Virus record (IMG/VR): IMGVR_UViG_3300037189_007631
Span: 1-32,550 of that record
Source: a virus
Strand: one strand, 5' to 3'
Length of the DNA: 32,550 bases
In this document: piece after piece, positions 1,598 through 27,725 of the stretch
Layout: the number at the start of each line of letters is the position of its first letter
How positions within the stretch are numbered: position 1 is the first letter of the stretch
Notes under the pieces: generated by a model
What the model saw: the letters and a program-made list of their open reading frames with translations, nothing else
The model's database searches: none
Told to the model about the DNA's origin: nothing
Made by a program: the position numbers and the translations under genes

Positions 1598-1602
1598 TAA
1601 TC

Positions 1603-4596: not shown

Positions 4597-5138
4597 TGGT
4601 AGCTTGCGCAATTTCAATTCCTCTGTTTACACCTGCCGAGTGTGATGAAATTGTGCAAAACTCATCTCGATGGGTTGAAGGAACTGTTCATAAGTTTGGA
4701 CAGTTCATCACTCAAAAACAGTTTAGAAGTGTGCAGATATGTAACGAAGGTCTATCTGAACAACTGGAAGATCAAATTTTTAGAACAGTGTTTTTGACAA
4801 ATTCTTCAACTTACCGCTATCATTTTGAAGGATATAATAAAAAAGATCCGCCTTTGGTGTTTAGATATTCAGCTGACAGGCAAGATCATTACACATGGCA
4901 CACCGACTCTTTGTCGGGTAACAGCGTTAGAAAATTATCTTTTACTATACAGTTAACTGATCCTGCAGAGTATGACGGCGGTGATTTAGAATTTATGCCG
5001 GCTGTTACTGATAAAAAAATTCGAGAACAGGGTACAATGACTATTTTTCCATCTTATACTGTACATCGTGTGGCACCAGTAACTCGCGGAGTTAGATATA
5101 CCATAGTGGGTTGGATATACGGTCCAGATTTTAGGTAA
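4596..5138 (+). CDS. 2OG-Fe(II) oxygenase, prolyl-4-hydroxylase / PKHD type
   Basis: A 180-residue Fe(II)/2-oxoglutarate dioxygenase. Its N-terminus (IPLFTPAECDEIV) is the typical first helix of the prolyl 4-hydroxylase alpha-subunit fold. The facial triad is H102 and D104 in YTWHTDS, and H157 in FPSYTVHRVAPV. R167 in GVRYTIVGWIYGP is the 2-oxoglutarate-binding residue. The YDGGDLEFM strand (126-134) is also characteristic. Members hydroxylate proline or other residues in proteins, or small molecules; the substrate here is unknown. The ATG overlaps the halogenase TAA (TAATG), so expression is probably coupled to the halogenase. It is the last gene before a strong hairpin terminator. Confidence 0.9.
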   Translation: MVACAISIPLFTPAECDEIVQNSSRWVEGTVHKFGQFITQKQFRSVQICNEGLSEQLEDQIFRTVFLTNSSTYRYHFEGYNKKDPPLVFRYSADRQDHYTWHTDSLSGNSVRKLSFTIQLTDPAEYDGGDLEFMPAVTDKKIREQGTMTIFPSYTVHRVAPVTRGVRYTIVGWIYGPDFR

Positions 5139-9742: not shown

Positions 9743-12700
9743 TTATTTTTGCATAAAGAACGCAAGGGCAACGGGAGCTCCGTCAATGCCGCCTGTGAAA
9801 TTCATTTTTGCTTTTACGTTAATCTGTACTCCAGTAGTAGTACTTATCGTATTGTTAGCCACGTAGATCACGCCCGAAGTCAGTGTATTTACGTTCAACG
9901 AGCTTTGACCACCACCAATCTGTGCAGTAATATACGATTTAATCGCTTTCTGCGTTGGAATGATGTTGTCACTGTTGGCTGTAAAGAACGGATCTGTTGA
10001 AAAGCTGGTAATAACCGCTGATCCAGCACCCACACTAACTGTACCAAGTTGCAAGCTCTGTAGACCTGACAAGTTGAAAGCTGACGCATTCAATGTAGCT
10101 GTACCAGTTGACTGTTGAACACCAAACAAGTTACCTACGTTGAAGTTACCGTCTTGGTCTGTACTTGTAAAGAAGCAACGTCCGCCGTTTGAACTTAAAC
10201 TCTGATTAGCCGTGATTGCATTTGAAATATTAACATTAGGATAGTTTGTGGCTGCAAAGCCCCCTGTACCAATGTATAAGAAGTCATGTCCTGTTAATCG
10301 TACCTGACTGTATTTCAATCTTGTAGTAACTTCATCGTTGTGCGATGGTGCATTTAGCACACTCAATGCTGGGTTAATTTGGAAGGTTGCAGTAAAGTTA
10401 CCCACATCACCTAACACGTTAGTTACACTTACTAATTTAAAGTACTCGCCAGGAATACTTGCGAACTCAACGTTTGCACCTGGGCTTGGACGTGAATACA
10501 GTCCGCTTACGTTAATGAAACTGCTGGCTTGATACAAGTCGCTATAACCGTCACCCGATGCGCTGGCTGTTGCTGTAGTGTTAGCATTACCTCTATCACT
10601 GAAACTTGGCTGACCAAGAACTCCAACACCCACCCTCACACGAGTTGGTGCAGTACGAATTCTGTTAGGATCAATTTGAGTAACTGTTGGTCCAGCAGTA
10701 TATGTTCCACTTAATGTAGCTGTTGAAATATTCAATGCTGTTCCTGCGTTAGCCAGTACCAAAGTCGAAGACACTTTAAATGAAGTGTTTGTGACAATAC
10801 TGCCGCTGGTTACAAAGTATGTGACATTTTCCACCAACCCTGCCGCTGAACAACCTGTAAATTCAACAGGTTGACCCACTGTCAAGTTAGTTGTATCTGA
10901 TGTTGTGATAACGTTGGTTGACGTTGTTGTTGCAGATACTGGACCTGCTGGATATCCTGAACCAGGTTCTATCATGCGAATTTCAGAAACAATTCCAGAT
11001 CCTACTTTCATACGTCCAATAGGAGTAGCACCAGTTCTTATGCTAGATGCAATTTGTCCAGATGTCAATGATACTGCTGAGAACACTGGAACTTTAACAC
11101 CTGCTACTGTTGGATTTCCAAATGCAATGCCTTTCCAGTTTGAGCTTGCTGACATTGCTCTTACAGTCCAAGTTTGACCGTCTGGGCTGGTAGCACATAC
11201 TGATGATCCGCTGGCCACAGCAAAGAATAATCCTTGTCCGTAAGTTACTTTAGTCCATGCGATGCTAGCTGGCAATCCAGCCGGACTTGCAATCCATGTT
11301 TCGCCTTGATCTATACTATATGCGGCATTTGTACTGCTGGCTGCAATAGCTACAAATCTACCGTTACCATATGCAACACTAATCCACGATGCACTAGCTG
11401 GTAGATTGCCTCCTGCTATCCAGCTATTTCCCGAAGTACTTGAGATAATAGACGAATTAGAACCTGATGCAACTGCCACAAAATAACCGTTACCATATGT
11501 CACTGAGCTGTATGTTCCTGCGCCCAGAGTAGGTACAGTGACCGCAGTCCATGCAGTATTTCCATCGGCGCTACGTGCGGCAGTATTTGTGCCGCCGATT
11601 GCCAGCCAATAGCCTGCACCAAATGCTATAGAAGCATATGTACCGTTTGGTAGTGAACCAGTACTTGCACTCCATGCTGAACTACTTCTAACTCCGCTGG
11701 CAGTAGTATACGCCGCTTTGGTAGTTCCGCCGGTAGCAGTAGTTGGAATTGCCACAAATTTTGCATTGCTATCTACAATAGTTACTGTAGGTGTGCTGGT
11801 ATATCCGCTACCACCATCGTTTCCAACAGCAATAGCTGAAACACCATTATTAGTTAGTTCAGCTACACCGGTTGCTTGATTTGTGGAGCCGCCACCTGAT
11901 ACTGTAATAGTTGGAGGGCTTGTATAATTTTTACCCCATGAGTTAACGGTAAATGATGTAATTATATCAGTTCTTACTTGCACTGTTGGAGTAGTAGCAT
12001 ATCCAGATCCTGGAATATCAACAATAACTCCGGTAATTGCGCCGTCTAAAACGATTGCTCTAGCTTCTGCAAGACTACCTGTAGCACTGACAAATTTAAT
12101 AGTTGGTGGAGTTAAATATCCAAAGCCGCCTCTAATGACATTAACTGCTACAACTTGACCAGATGAAACACCTTCTCCCAATACTGCTTCTAATATAGCA
12201 CTGATACCGCCTAATCCACCGACCACTGCTGTTGCAGTAGCTTGCTCACCGCCGCCGTACACAGCATCTACCCAGGTTGTTGAGCTTGGTAAGTTACCTG
12301 CACCTGCCCAAGTTATACCGTTTTCGCTGTAAGTGGTTGCAGTTGAACCTGTAGGAATAGCAAGGAATGTGTTAGCGCCATAAGTAACTGCTTGCCATGT
12401 TGCCACAGCTGACAGTGTTCTTGCAGTGGCAGTATATCCTGGAGCACTGTATGTTATTCTAGGTTCAATGATGTAAGTTGATGTTAAATCTAATGCATCA
12501 ACTGTTGCTTTGCCTGGAATAACGTTGTCCCAACCTGCCGCATACAATGTGACTGTTTGACCAGTTGTTGTAGCTGTTACAGGTTCTGCAGTTCCTCCAC
12601 TGGTTGTACTTACTGTAAATTCAGTTGCAGTAAATCCGCTTCTTACAAAGTACAATGTGTTAGCAAGTAGTCCGCCAATAGCAGTACCTAGATAAATTGG

Positions 12701-15700
12701 CATATTTGCATATAAAGTAGCAGTACTTGCCACTGTTAGCGTGTCGCCTGCATCTGTACTGCCTGTCACAGTTAAGTTAGTGAACGATTCTCTAAAGATT
12801 TTAGCAACTTTACTACCGTTGTTGTAATTTAAAATTGCAGCCGATTGACCAGCACCTGTACCAGCAGTAACTAAAATTCTCATTCCAGTATATGCTGTAC
12901 TTAATTGTCCGTCAGATGCGGCGATTGTGATATAACCCACATTACTTAACTGTGCCGCGTTGGCTGCTGTTAGATAACCACTACCGCCAAAGCCAAATCC
13001 ATTATTTAAATCGATCAATCGTGTTTCAAAAACACCATAGTCTCGGAATTCATCTCCAATTGCGGCTGCATTGAATCCTGCGCCACTGACTGTGTATGAT
13101 GCATTAGTATAATTTGAACCTGCATTGGCAAATTCAATGCGCAATACTTCTTCAGCACCGTCAGTTATCACGTTGGTAATAAATGCTTCTTCAGCTTGGT
13201 TGTTTAATCTTGCATAGATTGGAGTTTCGTATGTGTCAACACCTTCAGCAATAACACCATATGTACCATATGAACTGTTACCGTTGGTTGCACGAATACG
13301 TCCGCCTAGTTCTGCAATATAGCCAGCATAAGAATAATATGCAAACACAGACACAAGTTCTGTTAAACTGTTTGCACCTGTACACCAGCAACCAATACCA
13401 TCACTAATAAATGTTGTATAATCGTTAGCAACAATACTTCTATTTCCGCCTGCATGTAACGCACCGTCAATTTTCAATGCTGTTGCGCCAGTTCCAAATA
13501 GTGAGCAGTTCTGTACATAACAAGAACGACTGTTTACCCATGCATTTCTATCGTAAGGACCAAATCCTGGATCTAACGAAGTATAAGATCCGCCTTCTGG
13601 ACGCTTGGTTCCATATTCATTTTCCACACTCAACGGTCCTATTAGTCCTGACAAAGTCATGTTTCTAACACCAGTTGCGTTACGTACTAACCACATATCA
13701 CTGAGTTCTGATCCATTGATTGCATTTAGATATAACTGGGCCGCACGTTTAGACTTGTAGTTTCCAGTGTATTGAACATCATATATCAATGCTTTCAAAA
13801 ATTCTGCCATATCTCTACGGCATGATGCTGGATCATACGCATAACCTGTGGTCATTGCGCCTATACTGTTTGAAAGAACTTGAACTGTTGAAGAGTTTTG
13901 TACTGCGGTAACTGTGAACGAATCGATAGTTGGAGTTGACAACACATAATATGTGGTGTTGGCATTGATACCGCCCATTACTCCTCCAATTGTCACTGCC
14001 ATAATACCCGTATCATCTGAAGTAATAACTCCGGCTGCGCCACCATTAGTTAGACTGATGGTGATGTCACTGCCTGTAATGCTTTCTACATAATACACTG
14101 TTGGACTTCCACTAACTCCGCCAAATAGTGTTCCATCAAATGTAACTGGCATGCCTACTACAACACCTGCTGTGGTATTAAGTGTAATTTTCTTAGTACT
14201 TGCAGTTGTAGCTGTGGCTACAGTGGCAATAGGAGTAAACGTAAACTTAATCGGATCTCCTACTTCAAAACTGTGACTCAACACGTTAAACACATTTCCT
14301 GTGGCAGATGTTGAAGTTACAGTTCCGCCAAAATTAGCGTCAACCCATGCAGTTCCTTCGTGTGTTAGATAATCAATGTTAGCACGTAAAATTTCAACGC
14401 CTGCAATTGTCAGCACATCATTGTTATATTCAGTTGTTCCAGTCATCTCAGGAGTTTCGCCAACTCCAAACGACAATTGAGCCAATATAATTTCCATACC
14501 GCGACGTACTCGCAACGCAGCCGTTGCACTGGTATCAACTGTGTTTTGAATTGCAGTCTGTAAAGACTTTAGAGATTCACGTGTGCTTGACTGTAATCTA
14601 CCTAACAATGGTGCCGCTTGTGGACGATTGTATGCTTGCCCTGCTTTGACTGCACGGAAATTACTGTCAAACATAAAGTCATAAGCCACAGCATCAATTA
14701 CCTTGCTGGAATCGCTACGTGCTTGACTTTCGTCATAGTCTAAGTTTGCATAATTTTCGTTGATAAAATCAATTACGTCATCTTGTAGATCAGACTTAGC
14801 TGACGATAAGGTACTATATACTTGCACTAAAGTAGAGTCAACCCACCCTAGATAAGGCATACTTGTTTTGTGTACACTGATTGATAATCCAGTGCCGTTA
14901 GTAAATGTTGTTATTGCTACAGCACCGTAGGTTGCAGCCAATTTAAATGTATTAGTAGTAGCACCAACAACATAATATGTTGTGCCTAATACTAAACCAT
15001 TGGTACTGGCGTTACGCATTTCTATAAAGTCACCATCAAACAATCCATGTGCATTAGATGTAAATGTATCCGTGGTTGCAATAGCAGTAATGGTAATACT
15101 TGGTGCGCCTGCATCTAATCCAAGATCTACATAATTATAGATTTTAGTTACTAATTCATCAATAGTTGTGGCTGCAATAGCAGGACCAGCAACTTGTGCG
15201 CCATTCTTAAATATTTGACTTGTAGTGTTACCAGTCGTTGGAGTCACTGCACTGTTAGTAGCAACCAGCTGTGCCGCTGTACTTAGACGATCAATAGCAT
15301 CCAATGTAGCTGTTTTAACATAGCTTGAAATCTGACTTGTGCCAAATGTGTAATATGCTTGTCCTGTCAGCTGGCTTGCAGAGTCTCCGCCGTAAGTTAA
15401 ATCGTAATGAAGTGCATCTAAGATATAGTTACTATCACGACGTGTTAATACTTTATCGTATTCCAATGCTGGATATGTAAAATCAATGTATGCAATAACT
15501 TCGTCTAATAAGAAGTTTCTGTTGTCTTCCAATTGAATTACTGCATCTTTGATCTGTGCTACTGTTACCCTACTTACCGCACCACCTGAAATTGCCGATA
15601 CTACTAGTACGATATCATTAGCAGGAGTTACGCCGCCAATATTTGATCCTAAAATTTTGATTGTTTGACCAACACTGTATCCAGTACCGCCAGCGGATGG

Positions 15701-18700
15701 AGATGCTGTCAATGAAATTGCAGTTCGAGTAATATTGAATGTTGCTGAATTTCCTAATGCAGTTAAGTTAACACCAGCCACTGTGGAATATGTGGCACTC
15801 GGTAATACTGGATCAGGATATGAAATTCTTGGAGTTTTTCCACCAGTAATAGAATTGATAGCGTCGTCTAATGTGGTCTGCATTTGTGCAACCGCACCTG
15901 CGGCTGCAATATTTTTAACTTTATATTTGATAAAATTAATTGCACCAAGTGTTGGGGCTTTTGCACGGCCAGTTCTCAACGCTACTGCTGAGCTGGCATC
16001 GCTGAGATATCTACGTCCTGCAGATAATGAATTAAAGTTTGTACCTAGTACTAGGTCATAAGCAATTGCGTCAACTATTAATCCTGCATCTCGAGTGGTC
16101 AGTGCCAAATCTAAAACAACGTTTTGATGAAATTTTTGTACCCATGCAGTGGCATCCAATGCAATTTCAGTACGTTTTGCTTTGATTGCCGCATAAGAAG
16201 TTTGTAAACTTGCTGAAGCCCAAGAAATACTAGGCTCGACAGTTGCAGGTGTTTCTCCAGTAGTTATCCAATCAATTACATCTTGAATACGTGCTTGCGC
16301 AAATGTACTTGCTCCAGCAGAACCTGCGTCGCCTGTGGTCACACGAGTTACAGTATTGCCAGACTGTGCAGTAATAACAGTTTTTTGTATAATTTTGTCA
16401 ATCAACGATTTCATAAATGTATATGCATCGATGAGTGCAGGCTTTTCGTCTGCTGGAATATTCAACAAGAACGAACTATAATAGGCACTGCCAGCAACTA
16501 ATGACTGTATATTTCCACCATAAGTCATATCATGTTGTAACGCATCTAAAATAAAACTGATATTTCGTCTTACTTTTTCGCGACCTAATGTGTCGGTTGC
16601 AGTCCATACTGGACCGTAAGTTACACTGTTGGCATAGTACTGTGTTACATCTGCTATGATGAAACTGTAATTTTGAACAATTTGAGCCTTACCATCGCCA
16701 TAACCTGCTAAGAAGCTGGTATTATAACCTGTTGGTGCAGTAAATTGAAAACTAGGAATTGCACTATAACCGGTATTAATAATGTCTACTATGGTTTGTC
16801 CGTTGGCCATAATAACTGCGGCTGCACCTGTACTACCAACACTACCCGCTGGCAATGTTGTGACCTGTGTTTGCGTGTTACCCGCAGTTTCTGTAATATT
16901 GTTATTTGCAATTAAGTCTGGAATAATATCTTTAATACGTGTCAATGCGCTGATAGTCTTCTTTTTGTCATTGACCAGCATTGGGTTTGCACTTTTTGGC
17001 TGTACTACTGTTGAACGTAATTCGTCGCCTACTACAGCAGTATTGGAAGGAACCACAATTGGAAGAACTTCAGTATAAGTACCTGTCTTGATATTAACAG
17101 TAGTGTTAGGATTAATTCCGGCTGCGACAGCTGATGTGTTACCTTCTGAAAGTCCGTCGACTAAGATGTCAAGCAATGACTGAATGTTTGCGTTTGCATC
17201 AGCTTCTGCTGTAAGATCAGTATTGATTCTCTGAACTGCTGGTACAGATACACCGTTGAGTGTTTGATAGTTTAATGCTGGTGCAGAATTTGACAACACA
17301 TTAGCAATAACAACTTTTAAATATTGGTGACTGCCAATAAATTGTGTAATTTGATATCCAGTGTTGTCTGTAATATAAGCGGTGCCTGATGCATCGTAGA
17401 AAGACAGCGTGTTTGCTGTGGTCTTTTGTGTACCGCCATGTGTTAAATCATACACTAGACCGTCAACAATATATCCTGCATCACGTTCTGCTTTAGCAGA
17501 ATCGTAATTAAAAGTAATAACTCCAGTTCCTGTTCCAGCGGCATTTATCACTGGGCCGCCAGGAGTTGCACTTACTGTAAAGCTGGTGTTGGCTACAATT
17601 GTTTTGATGTAATAAACTGTGCTGGTATTAATTGCGCTGCCTGCCAATGTCAAAGCACCTGTCAAACTGCCAAATGTAAATGGCATGTTAACATTGATGT
17701 TTGCAGTGTTAGCAGTTAAGAATACACCCGAGGTAGTGCCAGTAACAGATGCTTTATAAGTGTAGACAATAAAATTGTTTACTTCTTTAATTAAGAACTG
17801 TTTGTTAGTTTGTAGTATTTCTTTGGATTGTGGATTTTGATATCCTTCTTCCACTTGCTTACAAGCAAAGCGAATTGTTTTCCACGGCTTATCAATACTA
17901 AACCCAGCCGCTGGATATGGCTCATCTACTCCTAACGGACCAACGAATACGGAATTATAAATCTGACCGTAAGTCGCCCAAACTGGATAGCCGTCAGAAA
18001 CACGTAAAACTTGTCCGTCAGTGCCAATTGGTAATCTTTGTGGACCGTTTGCTCCGTAATACAGCGTGTCGCCTGGTGTTGTCAGCGTAGCTGTTTCTGC
18101 ACCAGCGGCCAAGATGTTCCAATAATCCGCAGTGCTATCTGCATCTGGTCTGTTGCCTGAGCTTGCAGTATGTCCTTGAACACAGATATATGAATTTGGA
18201 CCAAAAAATACAACATCTCCAAGTACATATACAATACCATCTTTCCAAGACACTGAATTTCCAGTATGCGAAATTGCAGTAATGTTGCCTGCACTTGCGC
18301 TGTCCACTGTAATTATAATATCGTTTGCTGGAGTTAGGCCGCCTACGCTGGTTCCTAAGATTTTAATAGTATTGCCTGCAACATATGATGATCCGTCATT
18401 ATTGACAACAACTGTGTAAGCAGTACCAACTCTATTAACATCAAATGTTGCGCCAGAACCAATACCTGTCAATGTAGTAGATGCAACGTCTGTATAAGTT
18501 TCGTTGTTTACAGTCCAACGTAATCCAGAATTTAAAAGATTCCATTCTGCTGATGGCGGTTCTTCGCCGGTATTATCTACCAATGCCACATAAGTGTATC
18601 CGCCTAATCGTACCACATCGCCTACTAGGTAATCTGTACCGACATTCCAATCGCTACGGAAATTAAAGCCGGTAGTGTATACTGCCCAGTTGGCAGTGCT

Positions 18701-19504
18701 GGTTGACGGAACTTCATTGGTGTGATTAGTTTTAGAAATATAAGAATAGCCGCCGTAAGTTACTACGTCGCCAATTTGATATACTTCCGAATCAGACCAA
18801 GAATCTTCAAACTCAAAACCATTTAATAATATGCTAAATTTAGAGTTATCAAAAGATGTATCGGCTGTGTGATACGCTGTGCAAATCCATAAATCAGCGC
18901 CGTATTTAACAACGTCATTTACTCTGTATCTAACAGCATCAGTCCACTCGCCAAGATAAGTTATACCTTGATTAAATGTTTCCCATTTAGATTGATCTGC
19001 CTCTAATCCTAATTCATCAGTGGCTGAACTGATGTGTTTAGTTTTACAAATATAAACAATACCGCCGTAGGTTACTAAATCGTATACTTTATAACGTGTG
19101 CTGGTAGTCCAGGCTGCTTTCCAATCTACACTGGTAGCAAATTCGTCCCACTTGCTTTGATCATTTTCTAAACCTAACCAGGTTGGACTGACATAAGTGG
19201 CTGCGGTATGAGAAGTATTACACTGGTAAACAATGCCGCCGTATTTTACCAAATCGCCAACGTTATAATATTCGCCAGCGGTCCAATCGCCTAACCATTG
19301 TTGGCCGTCTGCAAGTAAATTCCATTTACTTAATTCTGGATTTGTACTATAATCGGTTGCAAACAACGCAGAAGATGTATGGTTAGTAATACAAATGTAG
19401 GTTTTACCACCTTGTGTGATCACATCGTCAACTACGTAAACAGTGTCAGTTTCCCAATTATTACGGTAAACGAATTTAATTCTACCTAATATAAATTCAG
19501 CCAT
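9743..19504 (-). CDS. giant virion adhesin-type structural protein, 3253 aa
   Basis: A single uninterrupted frame. Order of domains: CBM5/12-like repeats (six at 14-325, a seventh near 415-462); an inserted GSGATF module (345-403); beta-helix start (516-545 and 802-836, with TVNIKTGTYTEVLPIVVPSN); an insertion of about 1,000 residues (850-1930) with RD..IxDAxxYDLxxGGN repeats and a second GSGATF module (1247-1305); conserved beta-helix core (1935-2100, GGNRSIVAND, GGRIRATNGNSSYG); a seven-bladed Asp-box propeller (2365-2820) with a Gly-Tyr-Pro insert in blade 2 (2418-2581); and a C-terminal block (3064-3190, FTSTDQDGNFNVG, NIIPTQKAIKSY) shared with the 2722-aa protein. Carbohydrate-binding, beta-helix and propeller folds together point to a tail or baseplate adhesin. 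No protease or lyase catalytic motif is evident. AAGGA precedes the ATG. Confidence 0.88.
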   Translation of the reverse strand: MAEFILGRIKFVYRNNWETDTVYVVDDVITQGGKTYICITNHTSSALFATDYSTNPELSKWNLLADGQQWLGDWTAGEYYNVGDLVKYGGIVYQCNTSHTAATYVSPTWLGLENDQSKWDEFATSVDWKAAWTTSTRYKVYDLVTYGGIVYICKTKHISSATDELGLEADQSKWETFNQGITYLGEWTDAVRYRVNDVVKYGADLWICTAYHTADTSFDNSKFSILLNGFEFEDSWSDSEVYQIGDVVTYGGYSYISKTNHTNEVPSTSTANWAVYTTGFNFRSDWNVGTDYLVGDVVRLGGYTYVALVDNTGEEPPSAEWNLLNSGLRWTVNNETYTDVASTTLTGIGSGATFDVNRVGTAYTVVVNNDGSSYVAGNTIKILGTSVGGLTPANDIIITVDSASAGNITAISHTGNSVSWKDGIVYVLGDVVFFGPNSYICVQGHTASSGNRPDADSTADYWNILAAGAETATLTTPGDTLYYGANGPQRLPIGTDGQVLRVSDGYPVWATYGQIYNSVFVGPLGVDEPYPAAGFSIDKPWKTIRFACKQVEEGYQNPQSKEILQTNKQFLIKEVNNFIVYTYKASVTGTTSGVFLTANTANINVNMPFTFGSLTGALTLAGSAINTSTVYYIKTIVANTSFTVSATPGGPVINAAGTGTGVITFNYDSAKAERDAGYIVDGLVYDLTHGGTQKTTANTLSFYDASGTAYITDNTGYQITQFIGSHQYLKVVIANVLSNSAPALNYQTLNGVSVPAVQRINTDLTAEADANANIQSLLDILVDGLSEGNTSAVAAGINPNTTVNIKTGTYTEVLPIVVPSNTAVVGDELRSTVVQPKSANPMLVNDKKKTISALTRIKDIIPDLIANNNITETAGNTQTQVTTLPAGSVGSTGAAAVIMANGQTIVDIINTGYSAIPSFQFTAPTGYNTSFLAGYGDGKAQIVQNYSFIIADVTQYYANSVTYGPVWTATDTLGREKVRRNISFILDALQHDMTYGGNIQSLVAGSAYYSSFLLNIPADEKPALIDAYTFMKSLIDKIIQKTVITAQSGNTVTRVTTGDAGSAGASTFAQARIQDVIDWITTGETPATVEPSISWASASLQTSYAAIKAKRTEIALDATAWVQKFHQNVVLDLALTTRDAGLIVDAIAYDLVLGTNFNSLSAGRRYLSDASSAVALRTGRAKAPTLGAINFIKYKVKNIAAAGAVAQMQTTLDDAINSITGGKTPRISYPDPVLPSATYSTVAGVNLTALGNSATFNITRTAISLTASPSAGGTGYSVGQTIKILGSNIGGVTPANDIVLVVSAISGGAVSRVTVAQIKDAVIQLEDNRNFLLDEVIAYIDFTYPALEYDKVLTRRDSNYILDALHYDLTYGGDSASQLTGQAYYTFGTSQISSYVKTATLDAIDRLSTAAQLVATNSAVTPTTGNTTSQIFKNGAQVAGPAIAATTIDELVTKIYNYVDLGLDAGAPSITITAIATTDTFTSNAHGLFDGDFIEMRNASTNGLVLGTTYYVVGATTNTFKLAATYGAVAITTFTNGTGLSISVHKTSMPYLGWVDSTLVQVYSTLSSAKSDLQDDVIDFINENYANLDYDESQARSDSSKVIDAVAYDFMFDSNFRAVKAGQAYNRPQAAPLLGRLQSSTRESLKSLQTAIQNTVDTSATAALRVRRGMEIILAQLSFGVGETPEMTGTTEYNNDVLTIAGVEILRANIDYLTHEGTAWVDANFGGTVTSTSATGNVFNVLSHSFEVGDPIKFTFTPIATVATATTASTKKITLNTTAGVVVGMPVTFDGTLFGGVSGSPTVYYVESITGSDITISLTNGGAAGVITSDDTGIMAVTIGGVMGGINANTTYYVLSTPTIDSFTVTAVQNSSTVQVLSNSIGAMTTGYAYDPASCRRDMAEFLKALIYDVQYTGNYKSKRAAQLYLNAINGSELSDMWLVRNATGVRNMTLSGLIGPLSVENEYGTKRPEGGSYTSLDPGFGPYDRNAWVNSRSCYVQNCSLFGTGATALKIDGALHAGGNRSIVANDYTTFISDGIGCWCTGANSLTELVSVFAYYSYAGYIAELGGRIRATNGNSSYGTYGVIAEGVDTYETPIYARLNNQAEEAFITNVITDGAEEVLRIEFANAGSNYTNASYTVSGAGFNAAAIGDEFRDYGVFETRLIDLNNGFGFGGSGYLTAANAAQLSNVGYITIAASDGQLSTAYTGMRILVTAGTGAGQSAAILNYNNGSKVAKIFRESFTNLTVTGSTDAGDTLTVASTATLYANMPIYLGTAIGGLLANTLYFVRSGFTATEFTVSTTSGGTAEPVTATTTGQTVTLYAAGWDNVIPGKATVDALDLTSTYIIEPRITYSAPGYTATARTLSAVATWQAVTYGANTFLAIPTGSTATTYSENGITWAGAGNLPSSTTWVDAVYGGGEQATATAVVGGLGGISAILEAVLGEGVSSGQVVAVNVIRGGFGYLTPPTIKFVSATGSLAEARAIVLDGAITGVIVDIPGSGYATTPTVQVRTDIITSFTVNSWGKNYTSPPTITVSGGGSTNQATGVAELTNNGVSAIAVGNDGGSGYTSTPTVTIVDSNAKFVAIPTTATGGTTKAAYTTASGVRSSSAWSASTGSLPNGTYASIAFGAGYWLAIGGTNTAARSADGNTAWTAVTVPTLGAGTYSSVTYGNGYFVAVASGSNSSIISSTSGNSWIAGGNLPASASWISVAYGNGRFVAIAASSTNAAYSIDQGETWIASPAGLPASIAWTKVTYGQGLFFAVASGSSVCATSPDGQTWTVRAMSASSNWKGIAFGNPTVAGVKVPVFSAVSLTSGQIASSIRTGATPIGRMKVGSGIVSEIRMIEPGSGYPAGPVSATTTSTNVITTSDTTNLTVGQPVEFTGCSAAGLVENVTYFVTSGSIVTNTSFKVSSTLVLANAGTALNISTATLSGTYTAGPTVTQIDPNRIRTAPTRVRVGVGVLGQPSFSDRGNANTTATASASGDGYSDLYQASSFINVSGLYSRPSPGANVEFASIPGEYFKLVSVTNVLGDVGNFTATFQINPALSVLNAPSHNDEVTTRLKYSQVRLTGHDFLYIGTGGFAATNYPNVNISNAITANQSLSSNGGRCFFTSTDQDGNFNVGNLFGVQQSTGTATLNASAFNLSGLQSLQLGTVSVGAGSAVITSFSTDPFFTANSDNIIPTQKAIKSYITAQIGGGQSSLNVNTLTSGVIYVANNTISTTTGVQINVKAKMNFTGGIDGAPVALAFFMQK
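15590..15766 (-). repeat. GSGATF/TPAND module, copy in the long insertion of the 3253-aa protein
   Basis: Encodes residues 1247-1305: GNSATFNITR, GGTGYSVGQTIKILGSNIGG, then VTPANDIVLVV. It is the copy with the most changed first half (GNSATF instead of GSGATF). DNA similarity to the copies at 18296-18472, 20925-21194 and 21450-21707 is obvious in the part encoding IKILG..xGG.TPAND. Confidence 0.8.
18296..18472 (-). repeat. GSGATF/TPAND module, copy interrupting the seventh CBM5/12-like repeat
   Basis: Encodes residues 345-403: LTGIGSGATFDVNRVGTAY, SSYVAGNTIKILGTSVGG, LTPANDIIITV. It falls between the end of one repeat (NLLNSGLRW) and the start of the next (SWKDGIVYVLGDVVFFG), so it sits at or inside a domain boundary of the sugar-binding array. 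Confidence 0.82.
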
Positions 19505-19528
19505 TTTTTTTCATTCCTTTGATATCAA

Positions 19529-19536
19529 TATTTATC
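19529..19536 (-). promoter_or_regulatory. late-promoter-like GATAAATA in the gap before the 3253-aa gene
   Basis: The 52-base gap between the two giants reads, on the - strand, AGATAAATATTGATATC and then AAGGAATG before the ATG. GATAAATA differs by one base from T4 late TATAAATA and fits the NATAAATA form I recall for T4-like cyanophages. The distance to the ATG (about 25 bases) allows a short leader with its Shine-Dalgarno. It is the only sizeable non-coding gap in this operon. Confidence 0.5.
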
Positions 19537-19556
19537 TAAACTTAAATCTACTGCTA

Positions 19557-22500
19557 TTATCCACGGCGGTTTGCGTTCTTCAAAAAGAAGTCCATCGCCA
19601 TCAATCCGCCATCAATTAATCCCGAGTCTACCCCATCAAAATTAACCCTGTTAACCATTATCACACTGGATCCTTGTTGACCTTGTGGAATTGTATTGTT
19701 AATAATGTTGGGGCCACCTATAGTGACCTGACCTGCTGTTGTATTTCCTGTAAATGTGTTTGATCCACCTTGACTTAAACGAGCTGACAAGTAAGATTTA
19801 ATAGCTTTTTGTGTTGGTAATATTGAGTCACTGTTTGCCACAAATGTACCATCTGTACTAAACTGAGTAACAACAACACTGGATCCACCTACTGCAATAC
19901 CGCCCAAACTCAACTGACTTAATCCACTTAGTCCAAACTGGCTGGCGCTCAATGTTACAATACCGGTTGCCTGTTCAACTCCAAACAGATTACCAACTTT
20001 AAAGTTTCCGTCTTGGTCAGTTGATGTGTAAAACACACGACCGTAATTGCTTTCAATGGTCTGATCTTGAGGATTTAAAGTATTTTCAGCCGGTAGTCCT
20101 GGATATCCAGATTCGGGCTGATCTCCATAACCCACGTTTAAGAAATCGTGATTGGTCAAACGTACTTGACTGTATTTTTCACGAATAATAACATTCTTAT
20201 TGTGATCAGGACTTAATGCAATACTCATGGACGGACTGATTTGTATACTTGCTGTCAAATTAGGAGCTGATGTACCATCTAAAATGCTGGCACTAGTAAC
20301 TTTATAGATGATATCATTATCATCTATGACCAAGTTATCACCTGGGCGAGGTAGTCTTGTCAACTGTCTCAATACAATTTCTAATCCAGTCTGATATTGA
20401 TCTGCATAGCCGCTACCGTTTATTGTTACCGCTGTAGAGGAAGTATTATATCCTCGACCTCTGTTAACAAATGTTGGTGCACTGAGTACTCCGCTTCCTA
20501 GTCTAGCAGTGATTGTGGCCACACTAGTTACGTTAGGATCAAACAAAGTAATAGTAGGAGGTGCAGTGTAATTGCCGCCTGTTTCAAATTCTGTCACAGC
20601 AGTGATAATACCAGTAGTAACTGTTGGACGACCTTTAGTAGTAGCGCCTGCAAAAACTACACTGCCAGTGCCAGTTGTGCTGATAGTTACAAACTTTCCT
20701 TCGTTTTCAGTTTCACTGAATCCAAATGCAGAACCTGTATAATTTTGATTCAACACAGTACGTACTTTCCAAAATAATCCATCTTCACTGGTATGTGCCA
20801 CTGTGCTTCCTAATTTTGTGGCTAGGAATATGCCGTTACCGTACGAAACACTGCTTGCTGAAACTGCATATGGTGACTCGTACCAAGTTATTCCGTCGAA
20901 ACTATAAGCAGGTTTAGTAACTTTAGCAGTTCCTGTTACAGATATATCTACCACACCTGAACCTGAACCCAGTGCACCGCCGCCAATAGAATTAACTGTG
21001 ATAGTTAAATCATTAGCTGGAGTTGCGCCGCCCAATGCAGTTCCTAAGATTTTAATTGTGTCGTTAACTGCATATCCAGATCCTAATTGTCCAGAAATTA
21101 CAGAAGCCGAGTACAGTGTGCCGTTAGTTGACACATTGAATTGTGCTCCTGAACCTGATCCTATAATGTTAGTTCCTGACAGCGAACTAAATGTTCTACC
21201 GTCTGGTACTGCTACAAATCTTCCGCTACCGTAAGCAATGCTTGACCAGTTGGCGTTATCAGGAAGCGTACTGGCTTGCCAAGAAACTCCATTATTGACA
21301 CTGTATGCGGCTGATGTTCCAGACCTAGCTATAGCAACAAATCTATCAGATCCGTATGTTACACTACTCCAAGTTCTGCCAGTTCCTGGCAACGCACTGG
21401 CTGTCCAAGATGCTCCATAACTGGTAGAATATGCCGAAGTACCGGCAGAGTTGGCCGTGCCTGATACAGAAACTGTGGTTATACCTGGAGTAAGTGCGCC
21501 TATTGCAACTACAGTAATAGTTAAATCATTAGCTGGCGTCGCGCCGCCCAATGCAGTTCCTAGGATGCTAATAGTGTTTCCTGGTGCATAACCAGAATTA
21601 CCAGCTGTGGCCACTGTAGCAGTATAGGTAGTTCCAGTAGCTGTTACATTAAATGTTGCACCCGAGCCTGATCCGCTGATATTAGTGCCTGATAAATTTT
21701 CGTATGTTCTTCCGCTGGCCACTGAAACAAATCTACCATTTCCGTAAGCAGTACTGACCCACGGACTGGCGGTTGGCAGTGTTCCTCGCTTCCAACTTTG
21801 ACCTTTGGCAAACGAGTAAAGTGCAGTTCTGCTACGATCCGCAGTGATTACCCAAGCAGTATTTCCATATGCCACACTGCTCCAAGTTTCAGCCGCAGTT
21901 GGTAGTGTTACACTACTCCAAGTTTCGCCGTCATCTGATAATGCAATAGTTTGCTGTCCGTTAGGCACAGCCATCCAAAAGTTATCACCGTACACAATAT
22001 CTGCATAACGATTCATCATGTTGATTGCAGGTAAACTTATTGCAGTTTGACTGAATTGTGGTGGAGAATAAATTAAACGAGGTTCGATAAAATATAAACT
22101 AGTCGAATCAAGAGCAGGTTCTGCAGGAGTTCCTGAATTTACATGGTCCCAACCCACTTCACCCATTTGCATAGTACCTGCACCTTCAGTTAACTGAGCA
22201 ACTACGCCACCGAGTGTTCCGCTAATTGTAAAGCTATTAGGACTACCTGGCGTAATATCTTTGACATAGTAAGTTTGGCCTGCGTTTATTCCGCCAAAAA
22301 TTGGTGTTGAGAATATGGCATTCATAGATCCAGAACTAGTAGTCAGCGTTGTTTTGGCACTGGTTGTGGTAAATGCCATAGATCCTGTATCGTCAAGTAT
22401 GTCGGACGACTCTGGACAAGTTTTTGCCACCATGGATCCGGTTGCAGTATTCAATGCCACTGCCGAAGCACCAACAGTCGGAGCAATTGCAAATGTTGTG

Positions 22501-25500
22501 CCATCGTTAATAGCTAGAATAAAATAAGTTTGCTCAGGAATAAGACTTCCAAATGCGTTACCAGTAAATCGGATAGGATTATCTACTACAAATCCTGCGG
22601 TACTGCTACATGTTATCAAGTTTGTACCAAATTCAGTTGCAGTCACGTTGACCACTAGCAAAGTATCTGATACCTGGAATGAGGACGAAGTTGTGATCTT
22701 ACTGATGTAGTATTTTACTCCTAAATCCAATGCACCTAAAGATACTCCAGAGAACACGATCGGATTTAACGGAACTAGTGTGCTGGTGGATGTAACTCCC
22801 AGACGTTTATTAAGAGAAGTGGTTGATAAAATATTTCCAGTTATCAACAATGATGAAATTGTAAAGTTTGTTGCGTCAATAACATCGTTAATATAGTACT
22901 TGTCACCTGTGGCAACTCCGCCCAGTGCTAAACCAGTAAATTGTATTGGCATATTAGCCAACATGCTGGTAGTGCTACCTGTCATATAGCTGGTGTTAGA
23001 CGGTATGTTAATAAACATTGGACTTGTAGGAGTCACAGTTTGCAAAGTTAATGCACTACCAAACGGTGTACTGGTAATTTTAAAAGTAGTACTGTTGACG
23101 ATTTCGTATATGTAATACGTAAAGTTTTCAACTACTCCTCCAACCACAGTGCCACTAAAAGTCACAGCCATATTATAGTAAAAACCAGCTGTGCTAGTAG
23201 CTGTCATCACATTGAATAATCCGCCTGCGGCTTGTAAAATCTGTACAGAAGATTGTGAAGTGGCTGTTACTGTAGTGCTGTAATATGTTGGAATAAACTG
23301 TACTGGTTGATTAAAGTATAGTGTATTCACATCCGATTCGTTACTCAGTGTCAATGTGTCATCTATAGAAGATGTTGCAGTGATTGCCAAAGGTATAATT
23401 GATTCTTTTAATATGTATGCAATTTTAGAACTTTCGTTAAAGTCTGAAATAACTCCAAACTGACCTGCGCCTGTTCCGCTGTTAATAAACAATCGCATAC
23501 CGTTATAATTTGCAGCCGTATTAATGTCAGCACCGGCTAGTGTAATAAATGATTCGTTACCGCCTTGTGCGTTGTTACTGGCTACTAGATATCCGCTACC
23601 ACCTGCTCCTGCGCCCGGGTCTGTAATTCGCGATTCGTATACGCTTAATGATCTAGTTTCATCAGCAACAATAATTGCTTCAACTCCAGCACCTGCAATA
23701 ATATAATCAGCAAATGCTGTATACTGTCCTACTGTGGTTGACAGATAGAATCTTGGCTCGGAACCGATTTCTAATTGCGTTCCGTAAACATATGAACTGC
23801 CAGAGAAAAATACCAATCCACGAGGATACAATGTAAATCTTAATGTGTCATTTAACGCATTAGTATCGTATGTAGTAAACCAAATTCGGTACCAACCGTC
23901 TGTAAGGCTTATGACTCCGTATTCAATTGGATTTACACCGCCTGTAATTGCATACGGCGTAATAGCCAATGTATCAAAGTTGAATAAAATTCCAGAACCG
24001 TTCTGTGTTGCGCCGGTATAGTAGGCGATCAAATCAAAATACTGAGCTGTTCCTTTCTTAACATGAACACTGGCAGTGTAGTTTAATGCACTTCCTGCTG
24101 GAACAGTACCTGCTGGAGTTACAGTAATAATAGTACTACCCACAAGGCTGGCCACAGTAAGTGTGATATCATTAGTACCGTCAACACCACCAACTTGGCT
24201 TCCATATATTCTAATTCTATTACCGAAAACGTATCCAGTTCCGCCTGTGCCGCCCAACGCAATCTGCACATTGTAACTTGTGGCATTAACAGTAACATCA
24301 AATGTTGCGCCAGATCCAGAACCTGTAATATTATCTCCAATCAAGCCTGAATATGTAGCACCCGTTGGCGTGATAGATATATCTTTATAGATATAACTAC
24401 TGTCAGTGATGGAGGTTGTTCCGGTCATCATCCAGCCGTCTGCGTATCCGCTAGGACTGATAATATTTTGTTGTAATGTTACGTTGCCGTCTGTAGTCCA
24501 ACCTGCCGCTAAAAAGTCATTACTATAACCTAACAAGTTAGTAGTTGCTTGATTATATTCGACACCTGCGTTGATATATTGTAATTTTAATAAATTTGCA
24601 TCGGTACCAAACGCTTGTTGAACTGCGGCGCTGGCTTCGGTTGATTGATTATTAATCTTTGCAGTGATAGGAGATTCGTCAATATCAAACCCTTCAGCAA
24701 TACAACCGTACGAACCGTATGAGCTATTACCGTTGGTTGCACGAATGCGACCTCCGTCTTCAGCAAAATAACTGGTGTAGCAGTAGTATGTAAAAACTGA
24801 AACCAATTCTGCTTTAGATTCAGTGCCAGTAACCCATGCTCCAATACCGTCTGATATAATACAAGTAAAGTCGTTGGCAGTGATTGAGCGATTGCCGCCG
24901 TTATGTAATTCTCCGTCAACTTTCATACCACTACAACCAATACCAAACATGGTACAGTTTTGTGTGTAAGGACTACGTCTATAAATCCAAGCAGATGTAT
25001 CGTTTGGACCAGTACCAGGATCTAACGATGCAAATGCGCCGCCTGTCGGACGTTGGGTAAAGTATTCATTTTGTGCAGTTAGTGTGCCTAATAGACCTGA
25101 CAAAGTCATGTCACGCAATCCAGTGCCGTTTCTCAAACGGAACATATCTTCTATGGCGTCACCACCTACAATTTGATTAAATCCTTGTCTATCTTCAGGA
25201 GTTACGACAGCTCCACCTACCACTGTACTGACTTGGAACGAAGTAGGGGTCAGCGTAGATCCTTTTACATAGTATGTCTGTCCTGCGGTGATTGCGGCAC
25301 CTCCAACTTGTCCTGTCAAGTTAGTGACAAAACTTGATATTCTAACAAACTGTATAGGACATCCGTCGTACATTCCTTCTGTTGAATATGCGCTAAATGT
25401 CTTGTCTGTGCTGTTTGATTCTGTTGTGAATGTGTTGATAACTAGTTTAGGCTGAACTGTAACGCCGCGCAGTTCGTCTCCTACAATGGCCACTTGAGCT

Positions 25501-27725
25501 GGGACTACAATAGGAAGAGTTTCTTTATATGTTCCAGTTTTAACAAAAATAGTTGAACTGATACCTTGGTTAGGAGCCGGCAAATTCTGTGTAGTTGCAT
25601 CTGCCAATGCGTCAATGACTAAGTTTATTAAACTTTCTACTTCGTCCCTTGACGGAATTTCTGCAGAATATGTAGTATCCATTGTTAAAATATCTTCTTC
25701 TGGAACTCCCATTAATTCTTGATAGCTGATTAGCGGAGGTGTTCCAAATAGAACTCGCGTAACTACTAAATCTCTTAAAAATTCCAATGCTGCCACAAAG
25801 AACGGCATCTGTGCATCTACTTCGTCATTGAAGAACGAATCTGAACCATCTGGTTTAAAATACGACAAGGCGGCTGCTACAGTTTGACTATTACCAACTC
25901 GTGTTATATCATATACCACAGCATCAATAATGAAACCAGCGTCTCTAATTGTTTTGACTTGGCCAAACATTGAGCTAGGGCTAAACGGTGCAATGCTTTG
26001 AGATTTTTGATACAACATCCAATTGTACATCTCTGTAGTCACAAATAATTTATTGCTTTCCAGCGCCTGTCTTGCATTAGGATTTTCTGTGCCGTTACCA
26101 ACAAACTGGCAAGCATAGTTAATAGATGCCCATGGGCGATCCCACGTAATTCCGTAATCAGCTCTGTCTTCTCCGGTGGTTGCTACATAAAACACCTTAG
26201 GTGAAACTAATATCTGTGCCCATGCTGGAGTAATTGCAGTTGTTCCAGTAGCTCTTAACACTTGATCTGTGGTTCCAATAGATAAAGTAGAGTTGGTTAC
26301 TGCACTGTATGTTAAAATATCGCCTTGTAAAGTCAATGCATTATTTCTATCATGCGGGATAAAGGTGATCCAGTATTGATTATTTTCATCTGCATCTGGA
26401 CGACTCACGGTGGAATTTGTGCTGTTATCGTGTGATGCTATACACTTGTATGTGGAATTTTTCCAAACAACAATGTCACCTGCTACATAATATGTGTTAG
26501 AAGTCCAAAATCCAAACCATTTTGTACCTGGTATTACCAAGTCCCAATAAACATAATTAATTCCGTTAAATTCAAGAGCTTGTCCATCTGTAATTTCTTT
26601 GTCTAATGGAATATTTAATTCCACACTGTTCACACCTACTGTGACCACAGTTTGACCAAGACTGGCGCCTGCACCCACAATGACCATTCCCGGAACAATT
26701 CCTGAAGTACTGCTGAGATTTACAGTGGTTCCAGAACTGCCGGCGGCTACATAATTTTTTATCACTAATGCGGCAGTGGGATTTTGGCCGCTGTTATCTT
26801 GTAGAGCCGCAAACACATTACCACGTTGTCTTACAACATCACCAATTCTATAGCTGGTTCCATTGCTCCACTCGCCTCTTAGATTGTATCCAGTAGTAAG
26901 TAATTCCCAATCAGTTGCTTCAACAGATGGAACGTTATTGGTATTGTTTGCCACTAAGCTGGTGTATGAATATCCACCGTACATTACCACATCGCCTATT
27001 TGATAGATTGAACTAGAACTCCAGCTGCCTACATATTCTTGACCTGGTAACCAAATAGACCACTTGGTCTGGTCAAAATTTGTAGTAGAAGTATGTCCAG
27101 CATTAGAAATCCATAAGTCCGGACCATTCTTAACAATGTCGTTTTTCTTATATCTAAAATTCGAGCTGTTCCATGTACCAGTATACTCGATGCCTTCTGA
27201 CACAATGCTCCACAGACCAATATCGTCTTCTAATCCTAAAGTTATAGTGGAAGCAGACACATGATTTTCTGTACAAATATAAACAATGCCGCCATACTTG
27301 ACCACATCACCTATACCGTATGCAAGATTAGCAGTCCATCCGGGATGCCATTTGCTGAAAGATGCGTATATCTCAAAATTATCAGAATTAAATGAAGTTG
27401 TACTTTCGTGAGCCACTGTACAGATGTAGACAGATCCGCCGTAAACAACCATATTACCTAAATTAAGATACGTGTTTGGTGTCCATTCGCCGACCCACTT
27501 ATGACCATTGATAACAATGCTCCAGCGAGGCTGTGGTGCGCCGCCAGGAGTAAAAAAATACAATGCATCATAGAATGCCGAAGCATTAGTGTCTGATGTA
27601 TGTGGCTCTAAACAAACATAAGTTTTGCCTTCATAACTGACAACCGCATCTCTATTATAAAAGGTATCTGTAGCCCACTGGCCTAAGTAGTTGAATCGTA
27701 GTCTACTAATTTTAAATTCTGACAT
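19557..27725 (-). CDS. giant virion adhesin-type structural protein, 2722 aa
   Basis: Paralogue of the 3253-aa protein with the same plan. The N-terminus FKISRLRFNYLGQW matches FILGRIKFVYRNNW of the other. CBM5/12-like repeats (W..G.xY..GDxVxYGGxxYxC..xH) fill 14-312, with another at 400-452. The beta-helix begins at 511-540 and 725-760 (FVKTGTYKETLPIVVP); its core is 860-1035. A fibre-type jelly-roll (about 1060-1330: NLLGYSNDF, DGWYRIWFT, YGTQLEIGS) is split by a GSGATF module (1128-1195). Six FxG..GG..YY modules follow (1507-1845), then a seven-bladed Asp-box propeller (1905-2350) with GSGATF modules inside blades 3 and 5, and the shared C-terminal block (2517-2645). No catalytic motif is seen. 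TAAGGA, formed with the previous stop, precedes the ATG. Likely role is host-surface binding at the baseplate or tail. Confidence 0.88.
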   Translation of the reverse strand: MSEFKISRLRFNYLGQWATDTFYNRDAVVSYEGKTYVCLEPHTSDTNASAFYDALYFFTPGGAPQPRWSIVINGHKWVGEWTPNTYLNLGNMVVYGGSVYICTVAHESTTSFNSDNFEIYASFSKWHPGWTANLAYGIGDVVKYGGIVYICTENHVSASTITLGLEDDIGLWSIVSEGIEYTGTWNSSNFRYKKNDIVKNGPDLWISNAGHTSTTNFDQTKWSIWLPGQEYVGSWSSSSIYQIGDVVMYGGYSYTSLVANNTNNVPSVEATDWELLTTGYNLRGEWSNGTSYRIGDVVRQRGNVFAALQDNSGQNPTAALVIKNYVAAGSSGTTVNLSSTSGIVPGMVIVGAGASLGQTVVTVGVNSVELNIPLDKEITDGQALEFNGINYVYWDLVIPGTKWFGFWTSNTYYVAGDIVVWKNSTYKCIASHDNSTNSTVSRPDADENNQYWITFIPHDRNNALTLQGDILTYSAVTNSTLSIGTTDQVLRATGTTAITPAWAQILVSPKVFYVATTGEDRADYGITWDRPWASINYACQFVGNGTENPNARQALESNKLFVTTEMYNWMLYQKSQSIAPFSPSSMFGQVKTIRDAGFIIDAVVYDITRVGNSQTVAAALSYFKPDGSDSFFNDEVDAQMPFFVAALEFLRDLVVTRVLFGTPPLISYQELMGVPEEDILTMDTTYSAEIPSRDEVESLINLVIDALADATTQNLPAPNQGISSTIFVKTGTYKETLPIVVPAQVAIVGDELRGVTVQPKLVINTFTTESNSTDKTFSAYSTEGMYDGCPIQFVRISSFVTNLTGQVGGAAITAGQTYYVKGSTLTPTSFQVSTVVGGAVVTPEDRQGFNQIVGGDAIEDMFRLRNGTGLRDMTLSGLLGTLTAQNEYFTQRPTGGAFASLDPGTGPNDTSAWIYRRSPYTQNCTMFGIGCSGMKVDGELHNGGNRSITANDFTCIISDGIGAWVTGTESKAELVSVFTYYCYTSYFAEDGGRIRATNGNSSYGSYGCIAEGFDIDESPITAKINNQSTEASAAVQQAFGTDANLLKLQYINAGVEYNQATTNLLGYSNDFLAAGWTTDGNVTLQQNIISPSGYADGWMMTGTTSITDSSYIYKDISITPTGATYSGLIGDNITGSGSGATFDVTVNATSYNVQIALGGTGGTGYVFGNRIRIYGSQVGGVDGTNDITLTVASLVGSTIITVTPAGTVPAGSALNYTASVHVKKGTAQYFDLIAYYTGATQNGSGILFNFDTLAITPYAITGGVNPIEYGVISLTDGWYRIWFTTYDTNALNDTLRFTLYPRGLVFFSGSSYVYGTQLEIGSEPRFYLSTTVGQYTAFADYIIAGAGVEAIIVADETRSLSVYESRITDPGAGAGGSGYLVASNNAQGGNESFITLAGADINTAANYNGMRLFINSGTGAGQFGVISDFNESSKIAYILKESIIPLAITATSSIDDTLTLSNESDVNTLYFNQPVQFIPTYYSTTVTATSQSSVQILQAAGGLFNVMTATSTAGFYYNMAVTFSGTVVGGVVENFTYYIYEIVNSTTFKITSTPFGSALTLQTVTPTSPMFINIPSNTSYMTGSTTSMLANMPIQFTGLALGGVATGDKYYINDVIDATNFTISSLLITGNILSTTSLNKRLGVTSTSTLVPLNPIVFSGVSLGALDLGVKYYISKITTSSSFQVSDTLLVVNVTATEFGTNLITCSSTAGFVVDNPIRFTGNAFGSLIPEQTYFILAINDGTTFAIAPTVGASAVALNTATGSMVAKTCPESSDILDDTGSMAFTTTSAKTTLTTSSGSMNAIFSTPIFGGINAGQTYYVKDITPGSPNSFTISGTLGGVVAQLTEGAGTMQMGEVGWDHVNSGTPAEPALDSTSLYFIEPRLIYSPPQFSQTAISLPAINMMNRYADIVYGDNFWMAVPNGQQTIALSDDGETWSSVTLPTAAETWSSVAYGNTAWVITADRSRTALYSFAKGQSWKRGTLPTASPWVSTAYGNGRFVSVASGRTYENLSGTNISGSGSGATFNVTATGTTYTATVATAGNSGYAPGNTISILGTALGGATPANDLTITVVAIGALTPGITTVSVSGTANSAGTSAYSTSYGASWTASALPGTGRTWSSVTYGSDRFVAIARSGTSAAYSVNNGVSWQASTLPDNANWSSIAYGSGRFVAVPDGRTFSSLSGTNIIGSGSGAQFNVSTNGTLYSASVISGQLGSGYAVNDTIKILGTALGGATPANDLTITVNSIGGGALGSGSGVVDISVTGTAKVTKPAYSFDGITWYESPYAVSASSVSYGNGIFLATKLGSTVAHTSEDGLFWKVRTVLNQNYTGSAFGFSETENEGKFVTISTTGTGSVVFAGATTKGRPTVTTGIITAVTEFETGGNYTAPPTITLFDPNVTSVATITARLGSGVLSAPTFVNRGRGYNTSSTAVTINGSGYADQYQTGLEIVLRQLTRLPRPGDNLVIDDNDIIYKVTSASILDGTSAPNLTASIQISPSMSIALSPDHNKNVIIREKYSQVRLTNHDFLNVGYGDQPESGYPGLPAENTLNPQDQTIESNYGRVFYTSTDQDGNFKVGNLFGVEQATGIVTLSASQFGLSGLSQLSLGGIAVGGSSVVVTQFSTDGTFVANSDSILPTQKAIKSYLSARLSQGGSNTFTGNTTAGQVTIGGPNIINNTIPQGQQGSSVIMVNRVNFDGVDSGLIDGGLMAMDFFLKNANRRG
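20925..21194 (-). repeat. GSGATF/TPAND module inside propeller blade 5 of the 2722-aa protein
   Basis: Encodes residues 2178-2267: FSSLSGTNIIGSGSGAQFNV, LGSGYAVNDTIKILGTALGG, ATPANDLTITV, ending SVTGTA. It lies between FVAVPDGRT and KPAYSFDGITW, which are the two halves of one blade. It is the copy most like the one at 21450-21707, including at the DNA level. Confidence 0.85.
21450..21707 (-). repeat. GSGATF/TPAND module inside propeller blade 3 of the 2722-aa protein
   Basis: Encodes residues 2007-2092: YENLSGTNISGSGSGATFNV, NSGYAPGNTISILGTALGG, ATPANDLTITV, ending SVSGTA. It lies between FVSVASGRT and SAYSTSYGASW, which together form one Asp-box blade. The insertion point (after SGRT/DGRT) is the same as in blade 5. 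Confidence 0.85.
24141..24344 (-). repeat. GSGATF module inside the jelly-roll domain of the 2722-aa protein
   Basis: Encodes residues 1128-1195: LIGDNITGSGSGATFDVTVN, GGTGYVFGNRIRIYGSQVGG, VDGTNDITLTV. Its TPAND is changed to DGTND. It separates YIYKDISITPTGATYS from the continuation SALNYTASVHVKKG, which would otherwise be adjacent strands of a fibre-type carbohydrate-binding jelly roll. Confidence 0.78.

Follow-up and report, generated by a model that had tools for sequence, protein, structure and literature searches.

Two giant tail-fibre proteins encoded on a 32.5-kb virus fragment from IMG/VR (record IMGVR_UViG_3300037189_007631; the whole stretch of 32,550 nucleotides is called the window) raise the question of how one small sequence unit came to lie five times inside other domains. 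The unit, named the module here, had been interpreted in a first-pass annotation as a cassette that moves between the loops of its hosts. Our analysis makes it likely that the module is an autonomous beta domain of about 83 residues, which decorates the virion proteins of tailed phages as a plug-in unit and is nested in loops of other domains. The loop insertion was supported by structure models and by comparison with empty sites.

A hidden Markov model (HMM) of the module was started from the five copies of the annotation and refined in rounds on fetched loci (numbered L), and it converged at 83 residues with the consensus TYxxLxGTNxTGSGSGATF...GxGYxxGxTIxILGTxLGGxTPANDLTITV...ITxVxxxGTA. Exactly five copies (W1 to W5) were detected by the HMM in the window, and the rest of both giant open reading frames (ORFs) stayed at noise level. 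No match at E ≤ 1 was obtained among 266 shuffled and 266 reversed large proteins. The copies, the two proteins and the host regions are as follows.

9743..19504, minus strand: P1, giant tail-fibre protein of 3253 residues, carrying W1 and W2
19557..27725, minus strand: P2, giant tail-fibre protein of 2722 residues, carrying W3, W4 and W5
18254..18499, minus strand: W1, between two CBM5/12-like repeats of P1 (i-Evalue 2.9e-24)
18167..19456, minus strand: CBM5/12-like repeat array of P1, host of W1 (PF02839, 7 stretches)
15548..15793, minus strand: W2, in a linker within the P1 helical segment (i-Evalue 5.5e-20)
15350..16093, minus strand: helical segment of P1, host of W2 (from the sequence and the orthologue alignment)
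24102..24356, minus strand: W3, splitting the P2 jelly roll (i-Evalue 5.1e-19)
23748..24545, minus strand: host jelly roll of P2, both halves and W3
21453..21707, minus strand: W4, inserted after FVSVASGR into the B-C loop of one blade of the P2 propeller (i-Evalue 1.1e-26)
20925..21194, minus strand: W5, inserted after FVAVPDGR into the B-C loop of a later blade of the P2 propeller (i-Evalue 9.3e-25)
20646..22013, minus strand: host beta-propeller of P2, W4 and W5 included

All five reported copies were real and the only ones of the window (i-Evalues 5.1e-19 to 1.1e-26). The true module is longer at both ends than the described motif, and for W1 to W3 the first coordinates covered only part of it. 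The host contexts held for the blades, the jelly roll and the CBM5/12-like repeats, except that W2 sits in the linker of a helical segment. The DNA similarity noticed between W4 and W5 came down to one 61-bp stretch at 90%, and was weak overall (64% DNA identity).

P1 and P2 are paralogues, both on the minus strand. P1 is composed of a CBM5/12-like array, a tail-fibre core, a beta-propeller and a conserved C-terminus, while P2 contains a CBM5/12-like array, a core, the jelly roll with W3 inside and the propeller with W4 and W5 inside. The CBM5/12 family (PF02839) was matched above the cut-off in both (E 1.9e-34 in P1, 6.6e-25 in P2). In the P1 propeller, which is homologous to that of P2 and lies in the same genome, no module was detected by the HMM. 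A second IMG/VR contig from another sample (L094) was 99.99% identical to the window over 12.3 kb and carried the same insertions, which shows that they are not assembly artefacts.

AlphaFold2 models were obtained from the window sequence with the orthologue alignment. The mean predicted local distance difference test (pLDDT) and the predicted template modelling score (pTM) were 89.9 and 0.84 for the jelly roll with W3, and 83.9 and 0.83 for the propeller with W4 and W5. W3, W4 and W5 were modelled as the same six-strand domain, with the strand order alike around a four-residue (one-turn) helix at the PAND motif and two further strands after this helix, and both the propeller and the jelly roll closed around their modules. 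When the propeller model was searched with Foldseek, it matched Ycf48 (5ojr_C) with a template modelling (TM) score of 0.70 by target, over about 500 alignment columns for a 301-residue target. The match leaves about 200 query residues as insertions, in agreement with modules that protrude from an intact propeller, and the Ycf48-like fold is closed once the modules are treated as inserts. For the jelly-roll model, many viral jelly rolls aligned over the full length at 12-20% identity with a TM score of about half of the query, which fits jelly rolls that carry no module. The proposal of an autonomous unit that sits in loops without breaking the host fold was thus borne out by the models, in which the unit is not an integral part of the surrounding domain.

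Comparison of orthologues with and without the module, suggested by the annotation, revealed homologous empty sites for all five window positions. Many of these sites were found with module-free queries, and the homologues of lambda gpL discussed below with a query spanning module and host. The W1 site was empty in L026, L028, L049, L053, L055 and L068 and in L209, L251 and L083, and the W2 position was a 10-residue linker in L020, L056, L008 and L032. W4 and W5 were missing from most P2 relatives, including the close relative L107/L010. W3 alone was fixed, being present in all P2 orthologues found and absent from about 24 homologous jelly rolls of other phage proteins; the orthologues as a whole do not always carry the module at identical positions. 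The B-C loop measured 7-13 residues in 67 uninterrupted blades and about 95-139 in 12 module-bearing blades, after double-blade artefacts in the automatic list of blade inserts had been set aside. In a host tree of 32 P2 proteins computed without the module columns, 26 proteins had no propeller module, four had one and two (the window and L009) had two, and well-supported branches forced at least four gains or losses at the W4 and W5 sites. Clean occupied versus empty P2 pairs included L098 versus L096 and L104 versus L113. The module also interrupted a TYYV...TxFxVS beta repeat in the P2 orthologues L106 (residue ~841) and L124 (residue ~905), a repeat that is uninterrupted in 37 homologous ORFs of the fetched set. 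Overall, an empty homologue was present in the fetched set for 109 of the 190 sites outside arrays.

The profile built from the five copies recovered relatives across several virion protein classes. Relatives of the module are encoded by at least 451 IMG/VR stretches, and the fetched loci contained 448 copies in 231 ORFs (overlapping loci included). Among 265 distinct copies, 145 lay in head-to-tail arrays of up to nine and 118 were solo with both flanks. The collection of bacterial and archaeal genomes was the source of just eight loci; a tblastn search with one window copy hit P-HM1 alone among cultured phages, and a search with the HMM consensus gave 61 records at E ≤ 0.1. Hosts included gp7 of cultured cyanophages, virion structural proteins (phrog_5838 and phrog_3287, and YP_009321375.1 of the cultured cyanophage S-CAM3), a tail sheath (L031, phrog_23) and a lambda gpL-like minor tail protein (L046), in which PF05100 (Phage_tail_L) was split into two stretches by the module. 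About 36 gpL homologues were found, all without the module. The L031 sheath has two modules where the sheaths of cyanophages S-SM1 and QB2 carry another stretch, so the site in S-SM1 and QB2 is replaced or extended and not strictly empty.

The module is itself a host. In L050 and L047, copies were split at the GxGY loop by a LamG-containing stretch of about 180-210 residues, which is nesting at a second level, and in L075, L078 and L080 the stretch that splits the module matched CBM5/12 weakly. Within the P2 jelly roll of L036 (ORF 1, residues ~510-560) lay a CBM5/12 unit (PF02839, E 7e-7), and a LamG-like domain was located in the propeller of the P2 orthologues L076 and L043, near the W4 position but in a different loop. 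In the window, the CBM5/12-like array of P2 has one unit broken up by another insert, GSSGTTVNLSSTSGIVPGMVIVG..., and thus hosts more than one type of nested module. The features concerned are given below.

L050, ORF 7307, residues 996-1290: module copy split by LamG (PF13385, E 1.2e-19)
L047, ORF 5339, residues 1005-1313: module copy split in the same way
26559..26771 of the window, minus strand: the different insert inside the CBM5/12-like unit of P2 (from the sequence)
28456-32514 of the window, minus strand: baseplate-wedge-like protein
30481-30909 of the window, minus strand: LamG domain of the baseplate-wedge-like protein (PF13385, E 1.3e-23)

The LamG domain of this baseplate-wedge-like protein is of the same kind as the one that splits module copies in the other loci.

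The age of the insertions was evaluated from trees, synonymous codons and flanks. In the tree of module copies, which has few columns and weak support, all W3 copies formed one side of a branch, W1 needed four changes, and W4 and W5 were scattered. Synonymous codon sharing among the window copies was near expectation and only slightly higher for W4-W5 (z 2.5 among 45 pairs), so that this test did not support a recent copying event between these two. The closest occupied and empty pair found, two additional scans for recent pairs included, shared about 63% of residues in the protein flanks, and no junction signature in the DNA, recent copy or mobile-element signature was seen. Since synonymous sites are near saturation and no pair found exceeds this identity, the insertions are old. 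On the sequence comparisons W1 to W3 are old insertions, mostly inherited vertically, and the module behaves as if spread by rare in-frame events and vertical inheritance, with turnover at the propeller sites.

Rare, in-frame and ancient insertions would thus have carried the module through the structural proteins of marine phages, followed by vertical inheritance, occasional gain or loss as at W4 and W5, and tandem duplication into arrays of up to nine. Insertion is probably tolerated because the termini of the module lie close together, as it fits where the empty loop has 7-13 residues. A dedicated mobility mechanism would not be needed: illegitimate or homeologous recombination among repeat-rich genes for beta proteins may supply the events, and selection would keep the in-frame, fold-compatible products.

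Other explanations were weighed against this one. A disordered, low-complexity linker with no domain at all would agree with the richness in Gly, Ser and Thr, but the aromatic, Gly and Asn-Asp positions that 31 diverse members have in common and the confident AlphaFold2 folds make it extremely improbable. Hardly easier to sustain is a unit that was ancestral to each host domain and lost in some lineages, with no insertion. The presence of W3 in every P2 orthologue is what such a history would leave, but hosts with unrelated folds (propeller, jelly roll, CBM5/12 array, gpL and sheath) share the unit, which also forms tandem arrays, and most homologous blades, jelly rolls and gpL proteins are without it. 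Somewhat less improbable, and still very unlikely, is a cassette that is actively moving at present, in a site-specific or homing-like manner, from loop to loop and from gene to gene. It would account for the many host contexts in 13 flank families, for the turnover of W4 and W5, and for the window W5 being closer to the W4 of L009 (68%) than to the W5 of L009 (49%). However, no near-identical pair with and without the module was found (best flank identity ~63% in protein), synonymous sites between copies were near expectation, no nuclease or splicing domain was found with Pfam, and most W1 to W3 copies grouped by site in the tree. Of the movement between loops by recombination put forward by the annotation, old insertions and at least four gains or losses of W4 and W5 remain, while ongoing cassette movement was unsupported. 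An intein or homing insertion was also considered and rejected, as 83 residues are too few and no splicing or nuclease Pfam match or motif was present.

Several points weigh against the module as an inserted decoration domain. The models were built on alignments of 30-36 sequences, and the pLDDT of the modules in the propeller model was about 67-84. The module itself was the query with which the first loci were collected. The closeness of the termini was deduced and not read from model coordinates, and a binding or spacing role is what we infer from analogy. With these reservations, the decoration domain is most likely an exposed accessory surface domain, by analogy with known phage domains, which enlarges the surfaces of fibres, sheaths or baseplates; its insertion in loops suggests that it is exposed on the virion. 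Its putative role would be weak contact with glycans or the envelope, spacing, or fibre docking, like that of phage immunoglobulin (Ig)-like domains and of domain I of the T4 sheath protein gp18.

No Pfam, NCBIfam or PDB sequence match above the cut-off was found for the module. The nearest family was PF22639 (Gp18_dom_I), which matched weakly in 5 of 31 module members (best E 0.0076); its gathering cut-off of 27 bits was reached in none of 12 records, and membership is therefore not claimed. When 261 module sequences were aligned by hhalign with gp18 domain I of 8 T4-like phages, a probability of 93.8 was obtained (P 1.8e-7, score 42), for a partial alignment of 48 columns that covers the GxxYxVGDxIxV...GxIxxVxI half. 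Controls gave 10.6 (reversed), at most 16.2 (40 column shuffles), 8.5 (jelly roll), 19.2 (CBM5/12) and 19.9 (GYtsaPtV repeats). In T4, domain I is a six-stranded barrel with a helix, which protrudes and binds the retracted long tail fibres, and gp18 is nested at four levels, with domain I in II, II in III and III in IV (PMC3004832). The module and gp18 residues 98-188 each have six strands and a helix, a likeness by description that goes with a partial sequence alignment.

Judged by the profile alignment, a common origin of the module and gp18 domain I is probable. We are evenly divided on a reading in which the module is a detached, wandering relative of domain I, or both descend from one GxGYxxGDxIxI beta unit, so that the family would extend a known sheath decoration domain; this reading is compatible with the module as a plug-in decoration. 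The hhalign probability well above the controls, the weak PF22639 matches and a protruding barrel inserted in domain II (PMC3004832) speak for such an origin, but every record tested fell below the Pfam gathering score, and the alignment spans 48 columns, so that other strands may differ in order. Both are small all-beta domains inserted in another virion domain, domain I facing outward and the module probably doing so; domain I, however, is found once, at one position of the sheath, whereas the module occurs in many proteins and in arrays, below the Pfam cut-off.

Similar comparisons can be made with other systems. Phage Ig-like domains (Big_1/Big_2, FN3) are promiscuous, exposed and often optional beta domains on virion proteins, as in T5 pb6, lambda gpV, YSD1 and SPP1 (PMC8718954), and by analogy the module probably works so. 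It shares their trait of being optional on several virion proteins (tail fibre, sheath, gpL, gp7 and virion structural proteins). The cited Ig-like domains are C-terminal, whereas the module is nested in loops or arrayed, and no match to an Ig-like Pfam or NCBIfam model (Big_1, Big_2, FN3, I-set) was found in 31 members or in P1 and P2. In the major tail protein of YSD1, domain2 is a beta-sandwich inserted between alpha1 and beta4 of a virion domain (PMC8718954), but it makes subunit contacts and is described in one protein. Among phage proteins, an enrichment of domain shuffling is described for tail fibres, tail spikes and proteins of the baseplate (PMC10684548); the main text of that paper does not contain the word nested, and the module lies outside Pfam and NCBIfam as tested.

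The annotation's statement that nested insertion had not been described was wrong, given the published four-level nesting of T4 gp18 (PMC3004832), and tail proteins of phages are known to be built by nested insertion. The novelty lies in an unnamed, widespread module that has repeatedly entered hosts of unrelated fold and of different protein classes, and that takes up inserts in its turn. A broader and more doubtful idea, towards which we lean less than away from it, is that the virion proteins of marine phages have an open, recursive architecture, in which a few insertion-competent beta modules (the module, LamG, CBM5/12 and others) are nested in the loops of one another at several levels. 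The module would then be a free-ranging relative of gp18 domain I, and gp18 a frozen instance of a general process. The link to domain I, if true, ties a textbook nested protein to that process.

These results extend the repertoire of environmental phages by a common domain that has no name yet. The module partly accounts for fibre and virion structural proteins reaching 2000-5000 residues, giant surface proteins growing by domain nesting. The occupied and empty in-frame pairs offer material for studying how an entire domain comes to lie in a loop of another, and the empty sites mark loops that tolerate inserted domains.

The remaining part of the window contained other genes, which are listed below.

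153-2295, plus strand: tandem family of three adjacent phrog_7084 genes (uncharacterised family), one with DUF6065
2300-2929, plus strand: 2OG-Fe(II) oxygenase
2974-4593, plus strand: tryptophan halogenase (PF04820, E 1.7e-110)
4596-5135, plus strand: second 2OG-Fe(II) oxygenase
7806-8747, minus strand: one of three ORFs of about 320 residues downstream of the giants, ending in a C1q domain (PF00386, E 1e-5)

The halogenase and the two oxygenases that flank it are auxiliary metabolic genes close to the tail-fibre genes.

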